The notes beneath the pieces were generated by a model. The model saw nothing but the letters and a program-made list of their open reading frames with translations. It was not told the DNA's origin and searched no databases. Positions 33,954-43,076 of a stretch of 64,000 bases of DNA are shown piece by piece. Position numbers and translations under genes: made by a program. This stretch comes from Billgrantia sulfidoxydans. Lineage in GTDB: Bacteria; Pseudomonadota; Gammaproteobacteria; Pseudomonadales; Halomonadaceae. The stretch is taken from NCBI RefSeq assembly GCF_017868775.1, contig NZ_CP053381.1, positions 3,658,001 through 3,722,000 of the forward strand, written 5' to 3'. Numbering within the stretch: position 1 is the first letter of the stretch; every line of letters starts with the position of its first letter.

Positions 33954-36307
33954 GCAAGCGCAGCAAGCACCACGACGACGCTACCCCGGACCTGTTCGCC
34001 GATCTCGGTGAGGAATCAGCAGGCAGCCGCCAGGCAGCCGACGAGGGCGCCGAACCTGAACCGCCCCAAGCCGAGCCGGAACCGAACCAGGCCGCGCAGG
34101 GCGACGTGCAAGCCGCGCTCCACAACCCCCAGGCGCTGTTCGCCCTGCTCGACCGCTGGGTGGAGCGAGGCTGGCTGCGCGCGCTGGACCGGGCGCTGGC
34201 GAGCTTCTTCCAGCGCGAGGTGAACGACGCCCCACCCCTGCTGCTGCTCGCCGCGGCGCTGGCCAGCCATCAGCTCGGCCGTGGCCACGTGTGCCTCGAT
34301 CTCGCCCAGACCCTCGCCGCCCCCGACCTGGCGCTCTCGCTGCCGCCGGAAGGCGACGACCTCAGCGACCCGCCGCCGCTGCCAAGCGACCTGCTGGCCG
34401 AGCTGGAACTCGCCACCTGGCGTGACGCTCTGCACCACCCCGCCCTGGTGGCGGACGGCAACGAACCACCGGGAAACACCCCGCTGGTGCGCAGCGAGCG
34501 CGACGGCAACGTGCGGCTCTACCTGCGCCGCTACTGGCAGTACGAGCAGGACATTCGCGGCCTGATCGGCAGCCGACTTGCTGCCACCACCGACGCAGAA
34601 GCCGACACCGTCACCCTGGCCCGGGCACTGGCCGCGCTCTTCACCCCGGGGCATGAACTCGACTGGCAGCAGGCCGCCTGTGCGCTGGCCAGCCGTTCGC
34701 GCTTCGCCGTGATCACCGGTGGCCCCGGCACCGGCAAGACCACCACCGTGGTCAAGCTGCTCGCCCTGCTGCAGGCCTTGGCCCTGGGCGAAACCACCCC
34801 AGTTGGCTCCGCCGCCCCGCGCCCGCTGCGCATTCGCCTGGCCGCCCCCACCGGCAAGGCCGCCGCACGGCTCAACGAATCCATCGCCAAGCAGGTGCAG
34901 GGGCTTTCGCTGGTGGAACTGGCCGCCGCCGTAGGCCAACAGGGTGTGGATATCCCGACCCTGCGCAACAGCATACCCACCGAAGTGACGACCTTGCACC
35001 GCCTGCTGGGCTCGCGGCCGGACACCCGCCACTTCCGCCACCACGTCGGCAACCCGCTGGCGCTGGACGCCCTGGTGATCGACGAAGCCTCGATGGTGGA
35101 TATCGAGATGATGGCCGCCGTACTCACCGCCCTGCCGCCCAAGGCGCGGCTGATTCTGCTTGGCGACAAGGACCAGCTCGCCTCGGTGGAGGCCGGCGCC
35201 GTGCTCGGCGACCTGTGCCAGCACGCCGAAGGCGGCCACTACACCCCGGCCACCTGCGACTGGCTGCAACGGGTGACCGGCACGCCGATTCCTGAACGCT
35301 ACCAGGACGAAGGCGGCCAGCCGCTGGACCAGGCCATCGCCATGCTGCGGGTGAGCCACCGCTTCGATGCCAAGAGCGGCATCGGCCAGCTCGCCGAAGC
35401 GGTCAATCGCCCGCTCGCACCCGAGCATGGGCAGAAAGAGAAGAAACGCGCGGTATGTGAGATCTTCGGCACTGATGGAAAGTCACACTACGCCGACATC
35501 GCCCGCCTCGCCCTGGCGGACGCCGACGACCCGGCGCTGGATCGGCTGGTGGTGAACGGCAACCCGGCCGGTTTCATCAACGGCGGCGAAGGCCGCCACG
35601 ACCGTCGCGGCGAGCCCATCGCACCGCCCCGCGGCTACGCCCACTACCTGGACGTGATGCAGCAACAGCGGCCCGCCCAGCCCTTCTTCGGCGAAGGCGA
35701 AGCGCGCCCGCCCTACGACGACTGGGCGCGCCAGGTACTCGCCGCCCACGGCCACTTCCAGTTGCTGTGTGCCCTGAGGAAAGGCCCCTGGGGCATCGAA
35801 GGGCTGAACCCGCGCATCGGCCGGGCGCTGCGCCGTGCCGGCTGGCTCAAGGCCAGCGACCTGGAGCTGGAACAGGGCTGGTTCGAAGGCCGCCCGGTGC
35901 TCGTCACCCGCAACGACTACGGCCTGGGGCTGATGAACGGCGATATCGGCATCACCCTAGCCGTGCCCGAAGCGCGCAGCGCCAGTGAAATGGCCGGCCG
36001 CACCCTGCTGCGCGTCGCCTTCCCGGCCAGCGACGGCAGCGGCGACATCAAGTGGGTGCTACCCAGCCGCCTGCAAGCGGTGGAAACCGTCTTCGCCATG
36101 ACGGTACACAAGTCCCAGGGCTCGGAATTCACCCACACCGCCCTGCTGCTCCCCGACGTCCCCAACCCCATCCTCACCCGGGAGCTGGTCTACACCGGCA
36201 TCACCCGGGCAAGGGACTGGCTGACGCTGGTGGAGACGGGGCGCGGGATGCTGGATGAGGCGGTAACGAGGGAGGTGGTCAGGGTGAGTGGGGTGGGGAA
36301 GTTGTAA
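33950..36307 (+). CDS. recD: Exodeoxyribonuclease V subunit alpha (RecD)
   Basis: The fast 5'-3' helicase subunit, 785 residues, longer than E. coli RecD (about 608). The extra length is partly an acidic N-terminal region (EPEPPQAEPEPNQAAQGD) and partly an insert near residues 480-600. Walker A is ITGGPGTGKTTTVVKLL, Walker B region VIDEASMVDIEMM, then LLGDKDQLASVEAGAVLGDLC, and TVHKSQGSEFTHTALLLP with VYTGITRARDWLTLVE at the C-terminus. About 110 bp of the 3' end is repeated at 37176-37285. It is the last gene of the recCBD operon. Confidence 0.96.
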   Translation: MSKRSKHHDDATPDLFADLGEESAGSRQAADEGAEPEPPQAEPEPNQAAQGDVQAALHNPQALFALLDRWVERGWLRALDRALASFFQREVNDAPPLLLLAAALASHQLGRGHVCLDLAQTLAAPDLALSLPPEGDDLSDPPPLPSDLLAELELATWRDALHHPALVADGNEPPGNTPLVRSERDGNVRLYLRRYWQYEQDIRGLIGSRLAATTDAEADTVTLARALAALFTPGHELDWQQAACALASRSRFAVITGGPGTGKTTTVVKLLALLQALALGETTPVGSAAPRPLRIRLAAPTGKAAARLNESIAKQVQGLSLVELAAAVGQQGVDIPTLRNSIPTEVTTLHRLLGSRPDTRHFRHHVGNPLALDALVIDEASMVDIEMMAAVLTALPPKARLILLGDKDQLASVEAGAVLGDLCQHAEGGHYTPATCDWLQRVTGTPIPERYQDEGGQPLDQAIAMLRVSHRFDAKSGIGQLAEAVNRPLAPEHGQKEKKRAVCEIFGTDGKSHYADIARLALADADDPALDRLVVNGNPAGFINGGEGRHDRRGEPIAPPRGYAHYLDVMQQQRPAQPFFGEGEARPPYDDWARQVLAAHGHFQLLCALRKGPWGIEGLNPRIGRALRRAGWLKASDLELEQGWFEGRPVLVTRNDYGLGLMNGDIGITLAVPEARSASEMAGRTLLRVAFPASDGSGDIKWVLPSRLQAVETVFAMTVHKSQGSEFTHTALLLPDVPNPILTRELVYTGITRARDWLTLVETGRGMLDEAVTREVVRVSGVGKL

Positions 36308-36368: not shown

Positions 36369-37124
36369 ATGAAGCACTACAGAAAAATCGAACATGTGAG
36401 ACGCCACGGGCTATCCCTGCTGGCTCGGCTCGGCCGCTACGAGCTGGCCGTGCTGCTGTGTGTCTCGGTACTTTCCGGCGGGGTCTGGGGGTTCATCGAG
36501 CTGGCCGATGCCGTCATCGAGGGAGAAACCCAGAGCATCGATGAGACCCTGCTGCTCTCCCTGCGCAATCCTGCCGATCACACCGATCCGCTCGGCCCGG
36601 GCTGGGTCGAGGAAATGGGGCGAGACTTTACCGCGCTCGGCGGTGTCGGCGTGCTGGTCGTGATCACCCTGGGTGCCCTGGGCTACCTGTTACTCGCCCG
36701 GCACCATCGCGCGGCGCTCTTTGCCTCGGTCGCGGTGCCCGGCGGCATGCTACTCAGCACGCTGATGAAGATGGGCTTCGATCGTCCTCGACCCGACCTC
36801 GTGCCGCATGAAGCCATGGTCTACACCGCGAGCTTCCCCAGCGGCCATTCGATGATGTCTGCCGTTACCTACCTCACCCTGGCCGCCCTGCTCATTCGTG
36901 TACAGCCAGCGCTGAGGCTGAAGGCCTACCTGCTGATACTGGCGATACTGCTCACCCTGCTGGTGGGCATCAGCCGTGTCTACCTCGGCGTGCATTGGCC
37001 GACGGATGTACTCGCCGGCTGGACCGCCGGAGCGGCCTGGGCCGCGCTGTGCTGGCTGGTGATGCGCTGGTTGCAGCGGCGCGGGCAGGTAGAGACAGAG
37101 GAGAGCAGCTCGGGCACCGAGTAA
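36369..37124 (+). CDS. PAP2-family phosphatase
   Basis: A 251-residue membrane phosphatase. The three-part PAP2 signature is complete: KMGFDRPRPD, SFPSGHSM and SRVYLGVHWPTD, with catalytic His in the second and third parts. Several hydrophobic helices (about residues 22-42, 90-110, 115-130, 185-200 and 205-225) place it in the inner membrane. It probably acts on undecaprenyl pyrophosphate or a lipid phosphate. It lies between recD and a partial repeat of the recD 3' end, so it may be part of exchangeable cargo, although its base composition matches the host. Confidence 0.9.
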   Translation: MKHYRKIEHVRRHGLSLLARLGRYELAVLLCVSVLSGGVWGFIELADAVIEGETQSIDETLLLSLRNPADHTDPLGPGWVEEMGRDFTALGGVGVLVVITLGALGYLLLARHHRAALFASVAVPGGMLLSTLMKMGFDRPRPDLVPHEAMVYTASFPSGHSMMSAVTYLTLAALLIRVQPALRLKAYLLILAILLTLLVGISRVYLGVHWPTDVLAGWTAGAAWAALCWLVMRWLQRRGQVETEESSSGTE

Positions 37125-37175
37125 GTGCTCAAGCGATGGCAGCCGCAGCATCAAGTAGGTGCTGCGACTGCCAAC

Positions 37176-37285
37176 GCCCCCATCCCCATCCTCACGAGGG
37201 AGCTGGTCTACACCGGCACCACTGGCACGAGGGACTGGCTCACGCTGGTGGAGACGGGCCGCGGCATGCTGGATGAGACAGTGAC
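37176..37285 (+). repeat. Partial second copy of the recD 3' end
   Basis: These 110 bp match recD 36158-36267 in the same orientation at roughly 85 % identity by eye (about 15 differences). They encode PILTRELVYTGT...RDWLTLVETGRGMLDE in frame but have no start of their own. Base composition drops sharply right after the repeat. This looks like the edge of an imported block that carried the end of a diverged recD from another strain. Confidence 0.85.
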
Positions 37286-37310
37286 AAAAGTAGCATTAAG
37301 ATATTAAAAT
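37281..37310 (+). promoter_or_regulatory. Possible promoter of the AT-rich gene pair
   Basis: GTGACA (37281-37286) and TAAAAT (37305-37310) are separated by 18 nt, matching five of six consensus bases at each box. It lies 29 nt before the GTG start of the first AT-rich gene. In an AT-rich stretch such matches arise easily, so support is moderate. Confidence 0.35.
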
Positions 37311-37338
37311 CAAGAAAAAATGGGAAAGGGAAAACATA

Positions 37339-37839
37339 GTGGAAAATTTTATCGCCTCACTAGCTTCAACCATATTAGGCGGAATAACCTTAACCATTTT
37401 GTTTTTCACATTTAAAGAAAAGATATTCCCACCTCCAAACGTCTCAGGATTTTGGACGCTAACAACAACTACAACCAAGAGCGACTACAACCCTTACAAA
37501 GGCCTTGTTATCAAATATGACTCCATACTTTGGAGAGAGGGACTATTAGTTAAAGGAAGCATAGAGAAAAAATATGAAAGATCACAAAAAGGGGAAACTG
37601 AGCACCAAGGAAAGAACAGAAGAAGAGGATATGTGGAAGGATATATTGAAAAGAATTATTTAAAAAATGACTCATTAGTACTTCACGTAACTTTGAATGA
37701 TTTTGGGAGAGAGTCCACCTATTTTTTTAAATTTTATTTTAAAAACCCAAGCCTAGCACAAGGTGTATTTCATTCGATGACAGCTGCCCAAAGCGGCCAT
37801 GCTGAACTAGCAAAAGACAAAACAGAATCAACAAAATGA
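37339..37839 (+). CDS. Membrane-anchored protein with a probable beta-rich domain, unknown function
   Basis: 166 residues starting at GTG 37339, with AAAGGGA upstream. One clear membrane helix sits at residues 5-24 (IASLASTILGGITLTILFF). Then comes a domain of alternating polar/hydrophobic strands that starts with VSGFWTLTTTTT (residues 35-46, GxW pattern) and runs through VEGYIEKNYLKNDSLVLHVT to YFFKFYFKNP. This plan resembles the beta-barrel effectors of the Cap15 (S-2TM-beta) type in CBASS systems, but I see one helix, not two, and no cyclase gene. Codon and base use are AT-rich, unlike all flanking genes. Its stop overlaps the next start (ATGA). I do not recognise a named family. Confidence 0.75.
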   Translation: MENFIASLASTILGGITLTILFFTFKEKIFPPPNVSGFWTLTTTTTKSDYNPYKGLVIKYDSILWREGLLVKGSIEKKYERSQKGETEHQGKNRRRGYVEGYIEKNYLKNDSLVLHVTLNDFGRESTYFFKFYFKNPSLAQGVFHSMTAAQSGHAELAKDKTESTK

Positions 37840-38543
37840 ACCAAAAAGAGATATTTGATATAATTGGTGGAAAACCCGCCTTCACACTAGACATTAAAGG
37901 ATGGCTAATCTATTATAATCTTATTCTAGACAAGATATTGCTCCACTTGGATTCAGCGAAATATTCTTCTAGCCTAGCATTTCACGACAACCTCACAGAA
38001 TTTGAGAAATATGTAGTACTACTTGAAGATAAGAGATATTTCAACCACAGAGGAGTAGATTTATACTTCATTCCCAGAGCATTGAAACAGCTAGTCACAC
38101 GCAAAAGAATTGGAGGAATCAGCACTATAGAGCAGCAGTATATTAGAACAATACTAAACAGAAAAGAACGAACCTTATCCAGAAAGCACCGTGAAATAAT
38201 ACTATCATGGCTCCTGGCCCACCGAGCCTGCAAAAAAGAGGTTTTAAAGAGCTATCTCGGCTCAGCCTATTTTGGTTACAAGATAAACAGCTGCGACGAG
38301 GCATCACTCGTTCTATTTAGAAAAAATGCTAACGAAGCCAAGGCAGAAGAAGCAGCTCTTCTGGCAAGCTTACTAGTCTACCCATTGCCCAAGCAGGTAA
38401 TCCACGAAATCAAAGAAAAAAACATACAGACACCGATCAACATAAACAACTTCTTCCAAGTCTCAAGCTTAGTGGCACCAAACTGGAGCTCAAAGATATC
38501 AAGAAGGCTACGCTTCGCAATATCCTTATCCCAAGCCAAATAA
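37836..38543 (+). CDS. GT51 peptidoglycan transglycosylase-domain protein, no clear anchor
   Basis: 235 residues. The five GT51 motifs are present: EDKRYFNHRGVD (catalytic Glu64), GISTIEQQ (normally GASTISQQ), RKHRE (Glu120), KKEVLKSYLGSAYFG and EEAALLASLLVYP. It is closest in plan to monofunctional MtgA. Unlike MtgA and PBP1 proteins it has no N-terminal transmembrane helix before the catalytic domain, only a mildly hydrophobic stretch at residues 22-38. It would thus be cytoplasmic or held by its partner, which is unexpected for an enzyme whose substrate lipid II is used on the outer face. It overlaps the upstream membrane protein gene by 4 nt and shares its AT-rich composition, so they form a two-gene unit. 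Confidence 0.8.
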   Translation: MNQKEIFDIIGGKPAFTLDIKGWLIYYNLILDKILLHLDSAKYSSSLAFHDNLTEFEKYVVLLEDKRYFNHRGVDLYFIPRALKQLVTRKRIGGISTIEQQYIRTILNRKERTLSRKHREIILSWLLAHRACKKEVLKSYLGSAYFGYKINSCDEASLVLFRKNANEAKAEEAALLASLLVYPLPKQVIHEIKEKNIQTPININNFFQVSSLVAPNWSSKISRRLRFAISLSQAK

Positions 38544-39212
38544 ACGAGCAAGCAAGTAGCTACAACTCAAACGCTTCCTATTACCAAAGCATACCTGCCT
38601 TTCAATAGGGAAGGTTGAGAACCTTCCCTCCCTCACTTTAAGCATCAAATTCTCTATCACAACTACAATCCTGCTCCCAAGAACATTTAATCTTTGTTCA
38701 ATTTCGACATATTTTTCTTGGCTAAAAATTTCACGCTCAAGCTTTCTCACCTCGTTATTTAAAATATAAAACCCCCTCTGAATATCATACTCAACCTCCC
38801 ATGCTGCCTCGCTTCCAAATGAATACTTTATTCTTGCAAGCAAAACACCCAATTTTTCGTTCCACTCATTAACCACCTCAGAATACGCCTTCTCCACAGC
38901 TTGCTCAGAATCTTCAGCTTTGATAGACCATAGCTTTCTTCTTTGCCTGTGCAACCTTTTATAAGAAAGAAAAGAAAAATCTTCAATTAGACTCAGCGCT
39001 GCCTCCTCTTCTTTTTCGTAGTAACGAATCTTATCCCTCTTTGCCCAATAACAATGCTGAACCCATGCTGTAAGAATAACCACAAAAACAGTTAGAATCG
39101 CGCCAAAAAAATAGCTCATATATTTTTTCCGCAAATGGCCATAGTGAATTCTAATAACCATGTCTCTAAAAACCATACGCACTAGAGAAACCAAAGAGCC
39201 AGTGCTTACCAT
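38526..39212 (-). CDS. Membrane-anchored helical protein of unknown function
   Basis: 228 residues on the minus strand, AT-rich like its neighbours. A membrane helix at about residues 33-52 (SYFFGAILTVFVVILTAWV) is followed by long charged helices (YYEKEEEAALSLIEDF, NNEVRKLEREIFSQEKYVE) likely to form coiled coil. Its 3' end overlaps the end of the GT51 gene by 18 nt in convergent orientation. Several in-frame ATGs exist (39212, 39176, 39161, 39119), and none has a strong ribosome site. I know no family match. It may be a third component of the same island or independent cargo. Confidence 0.65.
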   Translation of the reverse strand: MVSTGSLVSLVRMVFRDMVIRIHYGHLRKKYMSYFFGAILTVFVVILTAWVQHCYWAKRDKIRYYEKEEEAALSLIEDFSFLSYKRLHRQRRKLWSIKAEDSEQAVEKAYSEVVNEWNEKLGVLLARIKYSFGSEAAWEVEYDIQRGFYILNNEVRKLEREIFSQEKYVEIEQRLNVLGSRIVVVIENLMLKVREGRFSTFPIERQVCFGNRKRLSCSYLLARLFGLG

Positions 39213-39304
39213 AAGGCTTCAGTACCATGCTGAGCTTAACACTAAAGCTAATCCTGTCCCACACACGGTATCAACGGTGATAAGCCAAGGGATAAAAGCG
39301 CCCC

Positions 39305-39760
39305 CCTCATCTTAAAGTACGGAAAGTACTCCTCCGTACCGAAGTGATTGCCTGCCTCGACCTTGGTGGGCAGGGTGAAGCCTTCGAAGTTTTTGGAAAT
39401 TGTCTAGGTAACAGCCGAAAGGCTGGAGCCGCAACGCCTTCTCGGGGTTGGCGTTGCTCCAGCGTTGGTACTGCACCCAGCGCGTTTGGCCGTTTTCAGC
39501 CACGGCGATCTCTATCGCTTGCTCCAGGCTGCCGTGGGTGATGATCGCTCGTGCCAGGTTGGGCTCGCCGGTCTCTTCCCAGCGCGCGTCGTGCTGCGGC
39601 AGCAGCGCTCCGGGGCCCAGAAGGCGGCTTCCGCCACCGCTCGGCCGAACGAGGCGCGCATGTGATTGTCGTCGCCCCCGGCTCTGCGACGGGCAGCGTG
39701 TCGTTGAGCCAGAAGCGCGTCCAGGAGCGGCCTTCCGCCATGCTGTGCGTCCGTGAGGGC
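39305..39760 (-). pseudogene. Truncated, frameshifted second copy of the DUF6544-type gene
   Basis: This stretch aligns in the same orientation with 42258-42696, the 3' half of the intact gene at 42222-43076, at roughly 90 % identity by eye. Shared product segments include RWEETGEPNLARAIITHGS and EQAIEIAVAENGQ. Small indels break the frame on both sides of that block, and the 5' half of the gene is absent. It bounds the AT-rich island on its right, just as the recD fragment bounds it on its left. Confidence 0.85.
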
Positions 39761-40879: not shown

Positions 40880-41247
40880 TTATTCGGCTTCTTTCGGGTT
40901 TTTGACTTCACGTAGCTGTTCCAATAATTCGGGAATATTGTCCTGGATGATGCTCCATACGGTATCGTCGTCAATCCCAAGATAGGCATGGATCAAGCGA
41001 TTCCTGGTAGCGATGATCATCCGCCAGGGAATGTCCGGATACTGCTGACGAACCGTAAGTGGAATACGTGTTGCCGCTTCGCCGATCAGCTCGAGATTTC
41101 GCAGTGTGGCGTCGTAGGTGAGGTCATGCACGGTGAAGCTATCCTGATCCAAGCCATCACATCAGTATAGGACAGGACCTTCTCAGCAAAACCGATCATG
41201 TCATCGATATAGAAGCGCCATTCGCGCTTGAGACGAGAATCAGACAC
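40880..41247 (-). pseudogene. HepT-family HEPN toxin, frameshifted
   Basis: The N-terminal part (SDSRLKREWRFYIDDMIGFAEKVLSYTD, from GTG 41247) and the C-terminal part (DQDSFTVHDLTYDATLRNLE onward) are in different frames. Between them, CATCA occurs twice in tandem on the plus strand (41155-41164); removing one copy restores a single HepT-length protein of about 120 residues. The RNase motif RNRLIH (Rx4H) is intact in the downstream part. The gene overlaps the end of mntA, which is normal for this pair. As it stands the toxin cannot be made in full. Confidence 0.8.
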
Positions 41248-41530
41248 GCACTGCCTCACGCTCCACATGGGGTCTAAGCTCGGGACGTAGCGCCTTATCG
41301 GTCACTAGATCTACCGGATGGCCCAACAGATCCTCCAGGTAGAACTGCACACCGAAATAATGCGCCGAGGTAGCCGGGCCCTCAAAGCTCACCAGGATAT
41401 CGATATCGCTGTCGTCGCGAGCCTCATTACGCGACATGGAACCAAAAAGCGACAACGAGGTGACGCCATACTCGCTGGATAGCGTCGGCAGGTGTTCTCG
41501 CAACAGCTGTAACGTCTCGGTTCTGTTCAT
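41240..41530 (-). CDS. mntA: MntA-type nucleotidyltransferase antitoxin
   Basis: 96 residues with the minimal nucleotidyltransferase core: LFGSMSRNEARDDSDIDIL carries the GSx10DxD metal-binding motif. In MntA-HepT systems this protein neutralises HepT by attaching AMP to it. It is intact, while the overlapping downstream hepT is frameshifted. Its TGA lies inside the start region of hepT (8-nt overlap). Confidence 0.87.
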   Translation of the reverse strand: MNRTETLQLLREHLPTLSSEYGVTSLSLFGSMSRNEARDDSDIDILVSFEGPATSAHYFGVQFYLEDLLGHPVDLVTDKALRPELRPHVEREAVRV

Positions 41531-42221: not shown

Positions 42222-43076
42222 CTACGACACCGAAAACCGCACCTCCCCCACCCTTACCCGAAAGAACGGAAAGTACGCCTCGGTGCCGAAGTGGTTGCCT
42301 GCCTCGACCTGGGTGGGCAGGGTGTAGCCTTCGAAGTTCTGGAAGTCGTCCAGGTAGCCGCCGAAGGGCTGGAGCCGCCACGCCTTCTCGGGGTTGGCAT
42401 TGCTCCAGCGTTGGAACTGTACCCAGCGCGGTTGGCCGTTTTCGGCCACGGCGATCTCTATGGCTTGCTCCAGGCTGCCGTGGGTGATGATCGCTCGTGC
42501 CAGATTGGGCTCGCCGGTCTCTTCCCAGCGCACTCCGTGCTGGGGCAGCAGCGCTGCCGGGGCCCAGAAGGCGGCTTCCGCCACGGCTCGGCCGAACGAG
42601 GCGCGCAGGTGGTTGTCGTCGCCCCCGGCCCTGGCGACGGGCAGCGCGCCGTCGAGCCAGAAGCGCGTCCAGGAGCGGCCGTTCGCCATGCCGTCCGAAC
42701 CGCTCATCTGCATCAGGCCGGCGCCGGCCCGTTCGAGGTGCCAGATGAAGCCGTGCGGCGGAGCGAGGATCTGGCGTGCCCGCATGGGGCGGTAGCCGGG
42801 TGTTTCCTTACTACCCAGGCCAATCTCGCCGCTCATGCGGATCTGGCTGACGACATGAAGCGGTGTGCCTGGTTCGATGGTGTAGAGGAAGTAGCGCCGT
42901 GCCGCATCGGGCAGGCCTTCGACCATGGCGGGGTCGAACGCTTCGACGCTGGCGGGCGCCTGGGATTGCAGCCATGCCCAAGAATTTTCCATCGCGCGGT
43001 TATCGGCCAGGCGCCACGCCTGCATCGCCAGTGCCGCTACCAGCAGTAGACCCACCGCTATTGCCAGGTACGCCAT
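42222..43076 (-). CDS. DUF6544-type membrane-anchored protein
   Basis: 284 residues with an N-terminal membrane helix (AYLAIAVGLLLVAALAMQAW) followed by a globular domain. VSQIRMSGEIGLGS, MRARQILAPPHGFIWHLE and YFPFFRVRV are landmarks of the DUF6544/DUF6920 group as I remember it. Function is unknown in the family. Its 3' half exists as a broken copy at 39305-39760, so this gene marks the right edge of the recD-linked hot spot. Confidence 0.75.
   Translation of the reverse strand: MAYLAIAVGLLLVAALAMQAWRLADNRAMENSWAWLQSQAPASVEAFDPAMVEGLPDAARRYFLYTIEPGTPLHVVSQIRMSGEIGLGSKETPGYRPMRARQILAPPHGFIWHLERAGAGLMQMSGSDGMANGRSWTRFWLDGALPVARAGGDDNHLRASFGRAVAEAAFWAPAALLPQHGVRWEETGEPNLARAIITHGSLEQAIEIAVAENGQPRWVQFQRWSNANPEKAWRLQPFGGYLDDFQNFEGYTLPTQVEAGNHFGTEAYFPFFRVRVGEVRFSVS

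Follow-up and report, generated by a model that had tools for sequence, protein, structure and literature searches.

The 64,000-nucleotide stretch of Billgrantia sulfidoxydans DNA analysed here (contig NZ_CP053381.1, positions 3,658,001 to 3,722,000; hereafter the window) carries an AT-rich cassette of 2015 bases (37286-39300) with a guanine-plus-cytosine (GC) content of 0.385, compared with 0.655 for the window as a whole. Three genes lie within these 2.0 kb: A1 (37339..37839, + strand, GTG start), whose 166-residue product is predicted to consist of an N-terminal membrane helix (residues 2-29) and an eight-stranded beta-barrel (residues 37-159); a gene for a 235-residue protein with the peptidoglycan glycosyltransferase domain GT51 (PF00912; 37836..38543, + strand), which lacks a membrane anchor and contains the glutamates Glu64 and Glu120; and C (38526..39119, - strand), encoding 197 residues with an N-terminal membrane helix and a probable coiled coil or helical tail. 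A1 and the GT51 gene overlap by ATGA, and the tail of the latter overlaps the convergent gene C by 18 nt. The remaining open reading frames (ORFs) of at least 60 residues in the cassette lie wholly or mostly inside these three genes or enter from the left flank. A first-pass annotation of the same DNA had singled out the A1-GT51 pair, its ATGA overlap and its composition, foreign to the host window, all of which hold; its description of a two-gene module stands for the pair and fell short in extent, as it missed C and a branch of related loci linked to a nucleotidyltransferase (NTase).

The GT51 protein belongs to its family by both score and residues. It matches PF00912 with 109 bits against a gathering score of 27 (E 1.7e-31, model positions 14-155 of 178) and monofunctional glycosyltransferase (MGT) sequences in the PDB with E 3.8e-14, and it retains both catalytic glutamates and most other catalytic positions. 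The MtgA equivalog model TIGR02070 gave 73.4 bits, under its cut-off of 182.65, and a long branch separates the protein from MtgA on a tree of GT51 sequences. Within the first 85 residues the hydrophobicity of a 19-residue segment peaks at 0.99, whereas the presumed MtgA of the host reaches 2.91; the window GT51 thus has no N-terminal membrane helix, in line with the first-pass annotation on this protein.

Structure prediction of A1 gave a mean predicted local distance difference test (pLDDT) score of 93 for a single helix followed by the eight-stranded barrel, so the one-helix membrane protein with a beta domain proposed earlier is borne out at the level of a model. The CBASS effector Cap15 was the top natural protein in the fold-comparison list for A1; it was not among the 50 Foldseek matches listed. 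A1 had no match among PDB sequences or in Pfam. The model shares with Cap15 and the related 2TM-beta proteins a barrel placed after a membrane helix, and differs from them in having one N-terminal transmembrane helix rather than two. Profile searches of genomes, run regardless of GT51 (E up to 1e-3 for the family and 1e-6 for the class and phylum samples), found A1 in 3/275 genomes of the family, in one of 369 genomes sampled from the class (the window's own) and in two of 398 sampled from the phylum (the window's own and G843, which has two copies). All five A1 genes found in this way are directly followed by a GT51 gene (the two G843 copies were profile-checked), so the pairing, whose failure to recur in other genomes would have counted against the earlier proposal, is more than chance.

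The convergent partner C could also start at 39212; its homologues and protein P0052 favour 39119. Seven further loci (L005, L006, L007, L008, L009, L062 and L065) have a C homologue convergent with a GT51 gene, with overlaps of 18 to 36 nt; L063 and L064, second copies of L007 and L008, were left out of this count. The GT51s of six of these seven loci cluster with the window GT51 on the tree, from which the seventh, L009, was left out because it is cut by a contig end. Within the genus C occurs in 2 of 90 genomes, both times beside a GT51 gene. A distant C homologue, P0060, carries the source name DUF4760 domain-containing protein; window C had no match to the DUF4760 family in a Pfam scan.

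The A1-GT51 pair is no isolated oddity but a member of a wider, partner-swapping set. With 31 related GT51 proteins as seeds, genome contigs of 84,980 species (50 loci) and viral contigs (3 loci) were scanned, and further loci were added from profile searches of genomes. After removal of duplicates, of 14 long penicillin-binding proteins (PBPs; ORF >600 residues) and of the host MtgA, 47 GT51 loci remained, or 48 with the window; they keep near-identical pairs (e.g. L022/L030), and many come from metagenome-assembled genomes. They span Pseudomonadota, Thermodesulfobacteriota, Bacteroidota, Acidobacteriota, Chlorobiota, Spirochaetota, Bacillota and Fidelibacterota. A partner gene (A1, C or NTase-like) stands beside the GT51 gene in 44 of the 47 loci (45/48 with the window): A1 in 18, NTase-like in 18, both of these in one (L011) and C in seven. 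No partner was seen in L014, in L020, whose ORF has an A1 remnant, or in L050, which ends with its contig. Among the 19 loci with A1, 16 have it first and in tandem, the reading frames as called overlapping by 4 to 151 nt. In L011 A1 lies on the opposite strand behind the NTase gene, so that GT51, NTase and A1 occur together, and in L016 it is an opposite-strand fragment near a contig end. In L023 (Acidobacteriaceae) one ORF of 400 residues encodes an A1-GT51 fusion. An assembly fault is disfavoured here because the closest neighbour of L023 on the tree, L020 (support 100/100), likewise joins an A1-like tail to its GT51 in one reading frame. The NTase-like gene (L010, L011, L012, L013, L018 and 14 more loci, often from Bacteroidota) lies 3' of the GT51 gene in all 19 cases, overlapping or abutting it when the first possible codon is taken as its start. 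Its product carries the motif GS...SDLD, and neither a Pfam model nor a clear fold match in the PDB was found for it.

Partner labels are clustered on the GT51 tree, which is unrooted (12 changes, shuffled mean 36). The window GT51 groups with the C-linked GT51s (support 99/96), so that the window's A1 either joined a C-type module or survived in one. Among the 48 aligned short GT51s, Glu64, Glu120, Asp65, Thr97, Gln101 and Arg116 are kept in every sequence covering them (one is cut short) and His71 in 46. The aromatic residue of motif I is not kept throughout, and motif II shows Lys to Arg and Thr to Glu replacements, for both of which the scan pattern selected. Ratios of nonsynonymous to synonymous substitution rates (dN/dS) were 0.13-0.20 for GT51 (five pairs), 0.08-0.10 for A1 (two pairs) and 0.075 and 0.53 for the NTase (two pairs), with synonymous sites saturated for E. 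coli A1 and for L007/L008 GT51 and C. Given these low values, GT51 and A1 have been kept by selection as proteins in the relatives compared.

The cassette adjoins recD, and the site between the recD tail and a DUF6544 gene is recognisable in congeneric genomes (61 searched, own included). Thirteen congeneric regions have both flanks on one contig; 22 of their proteins were scanned with PADLOC, and nine of the 13 sites gave a match at 1e-5 or better. These comprise Gabija with GajB (5.7e-249) and a split GajA (G098), AriA/AriB with RmrA (2e-174; G115), PrrC (1.3e-141) with a type I specificity subunit (1e-108; G051), a dGTPase (1.6e-72; G047), PDC-S23 in a gene of native-looking GC (3e-125; G092), a methyltransferase with a DpdJ-like protein (G083) and, with weaker scores, AAA or Avs-like proteins (G043, G078 and G100). 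Outside the genus the A1-GT51 pair was found in 5 of 5426 E. coli genomes, the fifth of which (H69) has coordinates and a record size identical to those of H68. One copy lies in a P2-like prophage, with genes for tail-fibre assembly on one side and for the tail sheath on the other, at the position where P2 carries its fun/Z exclusion gene. The defence hotspot described in PMC9122126 is, by contrast, the gpA-gpQ site. Another copy sits in an island that also holds two integrases, HipAB and an ABC-three-component/LmuB-like ATPase, and others lie in lambdoid prophages between antiterminator Q and holin. In a tblastn search of plasmid records, A1 was found on one E. coli record and the NTase on one from Aliarcobacter, the neighbour being annotated as a transglycosylase in both; on the Aliarcobacter plasmid the GT51-NTase pair is near DUF4365 and TIR/bSEFIR genes. 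On a viral contig (L055:3221-5740) integrase, GT51 and NTase-like genes form one overlapping run, so that module and integrase may belong to one operon. The earlier proposal of a defence or suicide module finds partial support in this location, in the recD-adjacent hotspot and in mobile elements.

Sidedness was assessed from the distribution of Lys and Arg charges around the helices. These fall mostly after the helix in 26 of 27 A1 sequences (equal in one) and in seven of eight C sequences, the eighth being window C, for which the charges are equal with the long start and 0 versus 4 with the 197-residue start. The long PBPs show the opposite bias in 13 of 14 cases, with L038, in which no helix was found, equal. 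Because the positive charges follow the helix, the A1 barrel and the C coiled coil are predicted to be cytoplasmic. Two A1 proteins from Flavobacteriaceae begin with an additional hydrophobic stretch (P0048 looks alike by eye), which would fit a signal with the N-terminus outside and the barrel inside. In the L023 fusion a single helix precedes both barrel and GT51, placing them on one side. At the threshold of 1.6 used for them, the NTase- and C-linked GT51s all lack an N-terminal helix (highest L007 with 1.40 and L042 with 1.35; a peak of 1.76 in L012 falls inside the catalytic domain). Among A1-linked GT51s other than L023, 13 of 18 do have an N-terminal hydrophobic helix (at least 1.4). 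The absence of an anchor, which the first-pass annotation had noted for the window enzyme, is therefore a trait of the window's subclade and of the NTase-linked GT51s and not of the whole set; a membrane helix, which that annotation had named as evidence against its reading, thus occurs in some relatives, though not in the window copy. Eleven of these 13 helices carry [Ser/Thr]-x-Pro (x = I, L, V or M) and the other two Ala-Leu-Pro. In the phosphoglycosyl transferase PglC a comparable helix is turned back by a Ser-Pro break, so that the enzyme stays on the cytoplasmic face, and the authors of that study propose that an aliphatic residue before Pro may act alike (PMC6133551). By analogy, the N-helix of A1-linked GT51s may be re-entrant and hold the enzyme facing the cytoplasm, and not serve for export as the MtgA anchor does. 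On an E. coli plasmid (L076:8540-9085) the GT51 start in PLSDB is later than that given by RefSeq for chromosomal copies (L078:12528), which hides the N-terminal helix. From these sequence features we infer with good confidence that the GT51 is located in the cytoplasm, and the inner-face placement proposed earlier agrees with this prediction.

The cassette is bordered by partial duplications. The left edge (37171..37285, + strand) repeats 115 nt from the tail of recD, with 85% identity to 36153-36267, and at the right edge 39301..39749 (no strand assigned) is a partial copy of the DUF6544 gene, in pieces 84-95% identical to 42248-42697. Several congeners likewise have recD-tail copies at the corresponding position, and the duplications may have been left behind by successive rounds of cassette exchange there. 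A possible promoter of A1-GT51 (37281..37310, + strand) is a consensus match alone (10 of 12 positions), and promoter-like sites in the cassette region are no more numerous than in shuffled sequences. The left flank contains a PAP2 phosphatase gene (36369..37124, + strand; PF01569, E 2.7e-26), also present at the site in 7 of the 13 congeneric regions and split in two pieces in one of them. About 1.6 kb beyond the cassette lies a pair of short genes (40880-41152 and 41240-41530, both on the - strand) that resemble a HEPN/MNT toxin-antitoxin pair; the latter gene matches PADLOC PDC-S09 at 2.5e-29, and no PADLOC match was found for the former. The database homologues of window C, A1 and GT51 (78, 86 and 82% identical, respectively) all have a longest source contig of 2548 bases, and this shared size indicates that a second complete three-gene cassette probably exists among them.

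The three-gene anatomy, the catalytic residues, the linkage to partners, the fusion, the mobility and the hotspot location are direct observations. On the basis of the genomic context we tentatively favour a defence function and read the cassette as a mobile conflict system, most likely an antiphage system acting by abortive infection. The inner leaflet of the membrane holds lipid II before it is flipped. A cytoplasmic GT51 would meet undecaprenyl-pyrophosphate sugars there, and polymerising lipid II on that leaflet would tie up its lipid carrier and starve the wall, which could plausibly end in abortive infection. In the resting cell the membrane partners may hold the GT51 inactive or away from the membrane; A1, with its helix and ligand-binding-type barrel, would sense or gate, and C, with its helix and coiled coil, would dock or restrain the enzyme. 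Upon infection the partners would release the GT51, which could then polymerise inner-face precursors that can no longer be flipped; the lipid carrier would be trapped, and wall growth would stop before the phage matures. The defence function, the parts assigned to A1 and C, the use of lipid II and the toxicity are inferred. The more specific picture of a widespread mobile immune family, in which a wrong-face peptidoglycan polymerase jams the undecaprenyl cycle and three interchangeable regulators (barrel, coiled coil and NTase) couple it to different infection signals, is possible and is held with more reserve.

Several points weigh against a defence system of this kind. Among the proteins scanned, four of the 13 congeneric sites (G110, G094, G035 and G045) gave no PADLOC match, and the hotspot tally stands without a random-site control. 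The module is rare, as the 3/275 genomes of the family with A1 illustrate. The lambdoid position between Q and holin would suit a function in lysis or as a late gene as well. The control for topology is not clean, since the charges of the host MtgA are equal on both sides; the bias of the 13 GT51 N-helices is mixed (after the helix in eight, equal in one, before it in four), and some A1-linked GT51s with such a helix could face the periplasm. A single origin of all partnered GT51s, apart from the PBPs, is possible, set against an unrooted tree and one supported split (99/90) that places the C group, the PBPs and MtgA opposite the A1- and NTase-linked GT51s. Most members of the GT51 family serve housekeeping functions, and to our knowledge no cytoplasmic-face lipid II polymerase has been described.

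The tight tandem or tail-to-tail overlaps, the usual presence of one partner per GT51, the mobile contexts and the probable HEPN/MNT pair about 1.6 kb away would also suit a toxin-antitoxin-like addiction module, in which GT51 is an inner-face toxin, A1, C or the NTase its antitoxin, and the benefit the persistence of the element rather than primarily defence. HEPN/MNT antitoxins act by nucleotidylation and offer a model for the NTase in such a role. A simple antitoxin would not usually be drawn from three unrelated partner families, however, or have two of these side by side as the window and L011 do, and L023 would mean a toxin fused to its antitoxin; we regard addiction as unlikely. The rival that would alter the picture most has A1, not GT51, as the killer, as in Cap15 and Panoptes: the barrel protein would be a membrane-damaging effector, and GT51 its co-factor or the maker of a lipid-linked signal bound by the barrel. 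In its favour are the first rank of Cap15 among natural fold matches of A1, the joint occurrence of GT51, NTase and A1 in L011, and the Cap15-like protein of Panoptes, which is reported to lyse the cell when its ligand is absent (PMC12657230). Among the cassette genes, the only ones scanned for this, none of the three is a CD-NTase as a CBASS would have, and we consider signalling of this type improbable.

Two further alternatives keep the enzyme closer to envelope chemistry. If GT51 polymerised a surface-glycan precursor or wall so as to block superinfecting injection or lysis, with the partners positioning it, the prophage copies next to lysis or tail genes would fit, and GT51 chemistry does suit undecaprenyl-pyrophosphate sugars. 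Such exclusion or receptor change is distinctly unlikely, as the GT51 is predicted on the cytoplasmic side and the stretches displayed around the E. coli and plasmid copies contain no annotated surface-glycan gene. That the cassette simply supplies an accessory MtgA-like wall synthase on mobile DNA, acting in the periplasm as usual for stress or repair, would agree with the catalytic set and with the N-terminal hydrophobic helix often seen in A1-linked relatives. The window copy and the NTase- and C-linked GT51s have no anchor or signal, however, and the TIGR02070 score and the long branch set the protein apart from MtgA; the partners are conserved and of cytoplasmic type, and a nucleotidyltransferase would need cytosolic substrates. 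We judge this explanation quite improbable.

GT51 enzymes are known as periplasmic wall synthases and drug targets. If the abortive-infection reading is true, cytoplasmic GT51s on phages, plasmids and in defence hotspots, with changing regulatory partners, would represent a new enzyme class in bacterial immunity, and it would become testable whether polymerisation can act on lipid II that has yet to be flipped, and with what cellular effect; the natural E. coli prophage copies ease such testing. No Pfam model was matched above its cut-off by 27 A1, 19 NTase and three C proteins (best E-values 0.0006 to 0.003, as expected by chance), and PADLOC-DB 2.0.0 returned no family for window A1, GT51 and C or for ten relatives (five A1 proteins, one of them the fusion, two C and three NTase proteins). 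Searches of the open literature found no GT51-based defence or signalling system. The A1-, C- or NTase-linked GT51 module appears to be undescribed, and its function is putative.

Known systems resemble single parts of it. The PglC-type fold is unrelated to GT51. Monotopic phosphoglycosyl transferases of this type combine a re-entrant, Pro-broken N-helix with a cytoplasm-facing domain that acts on a polyprenol-linked sugar (PMC6133551); the likeness concerns topology alone and does not apply to the window GT51, which has no helix. With HEPN/MNT and other toxin/nucleotidyltransferase pairs the NTase-linked branch shares the minimal motif GS...SDLD, but here the partner enzyme of the NTase is a GT51, and the NTase is absent from the window cassette. 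A1 shares the eight-stranded barrel fold of Cap15 (CBASS) and 2TM-beta (Panoptes), with one predicted helix instead of two; the Panoptes account mentions N-terminal transmembrane helices and gives the homologue the name 2TM-beta (PMC12657230). Unlike those systems, the cassette contains no CD-NTase or mCpol, and the partner of A1 is a GT51. Closest in chemistry are the monofunctional GT51s (MtgA and Staphylococcus aureus MGT), which have the same PF00912 domain and catalytic residues; the window GT51 differs from them in lacking a transmembrane anchor, in scoring far below the MtgA model cut-off and in its place on mobile DNA, and the short GT51s described here stand beside A1, C or NTase in 45 of 48 loci.
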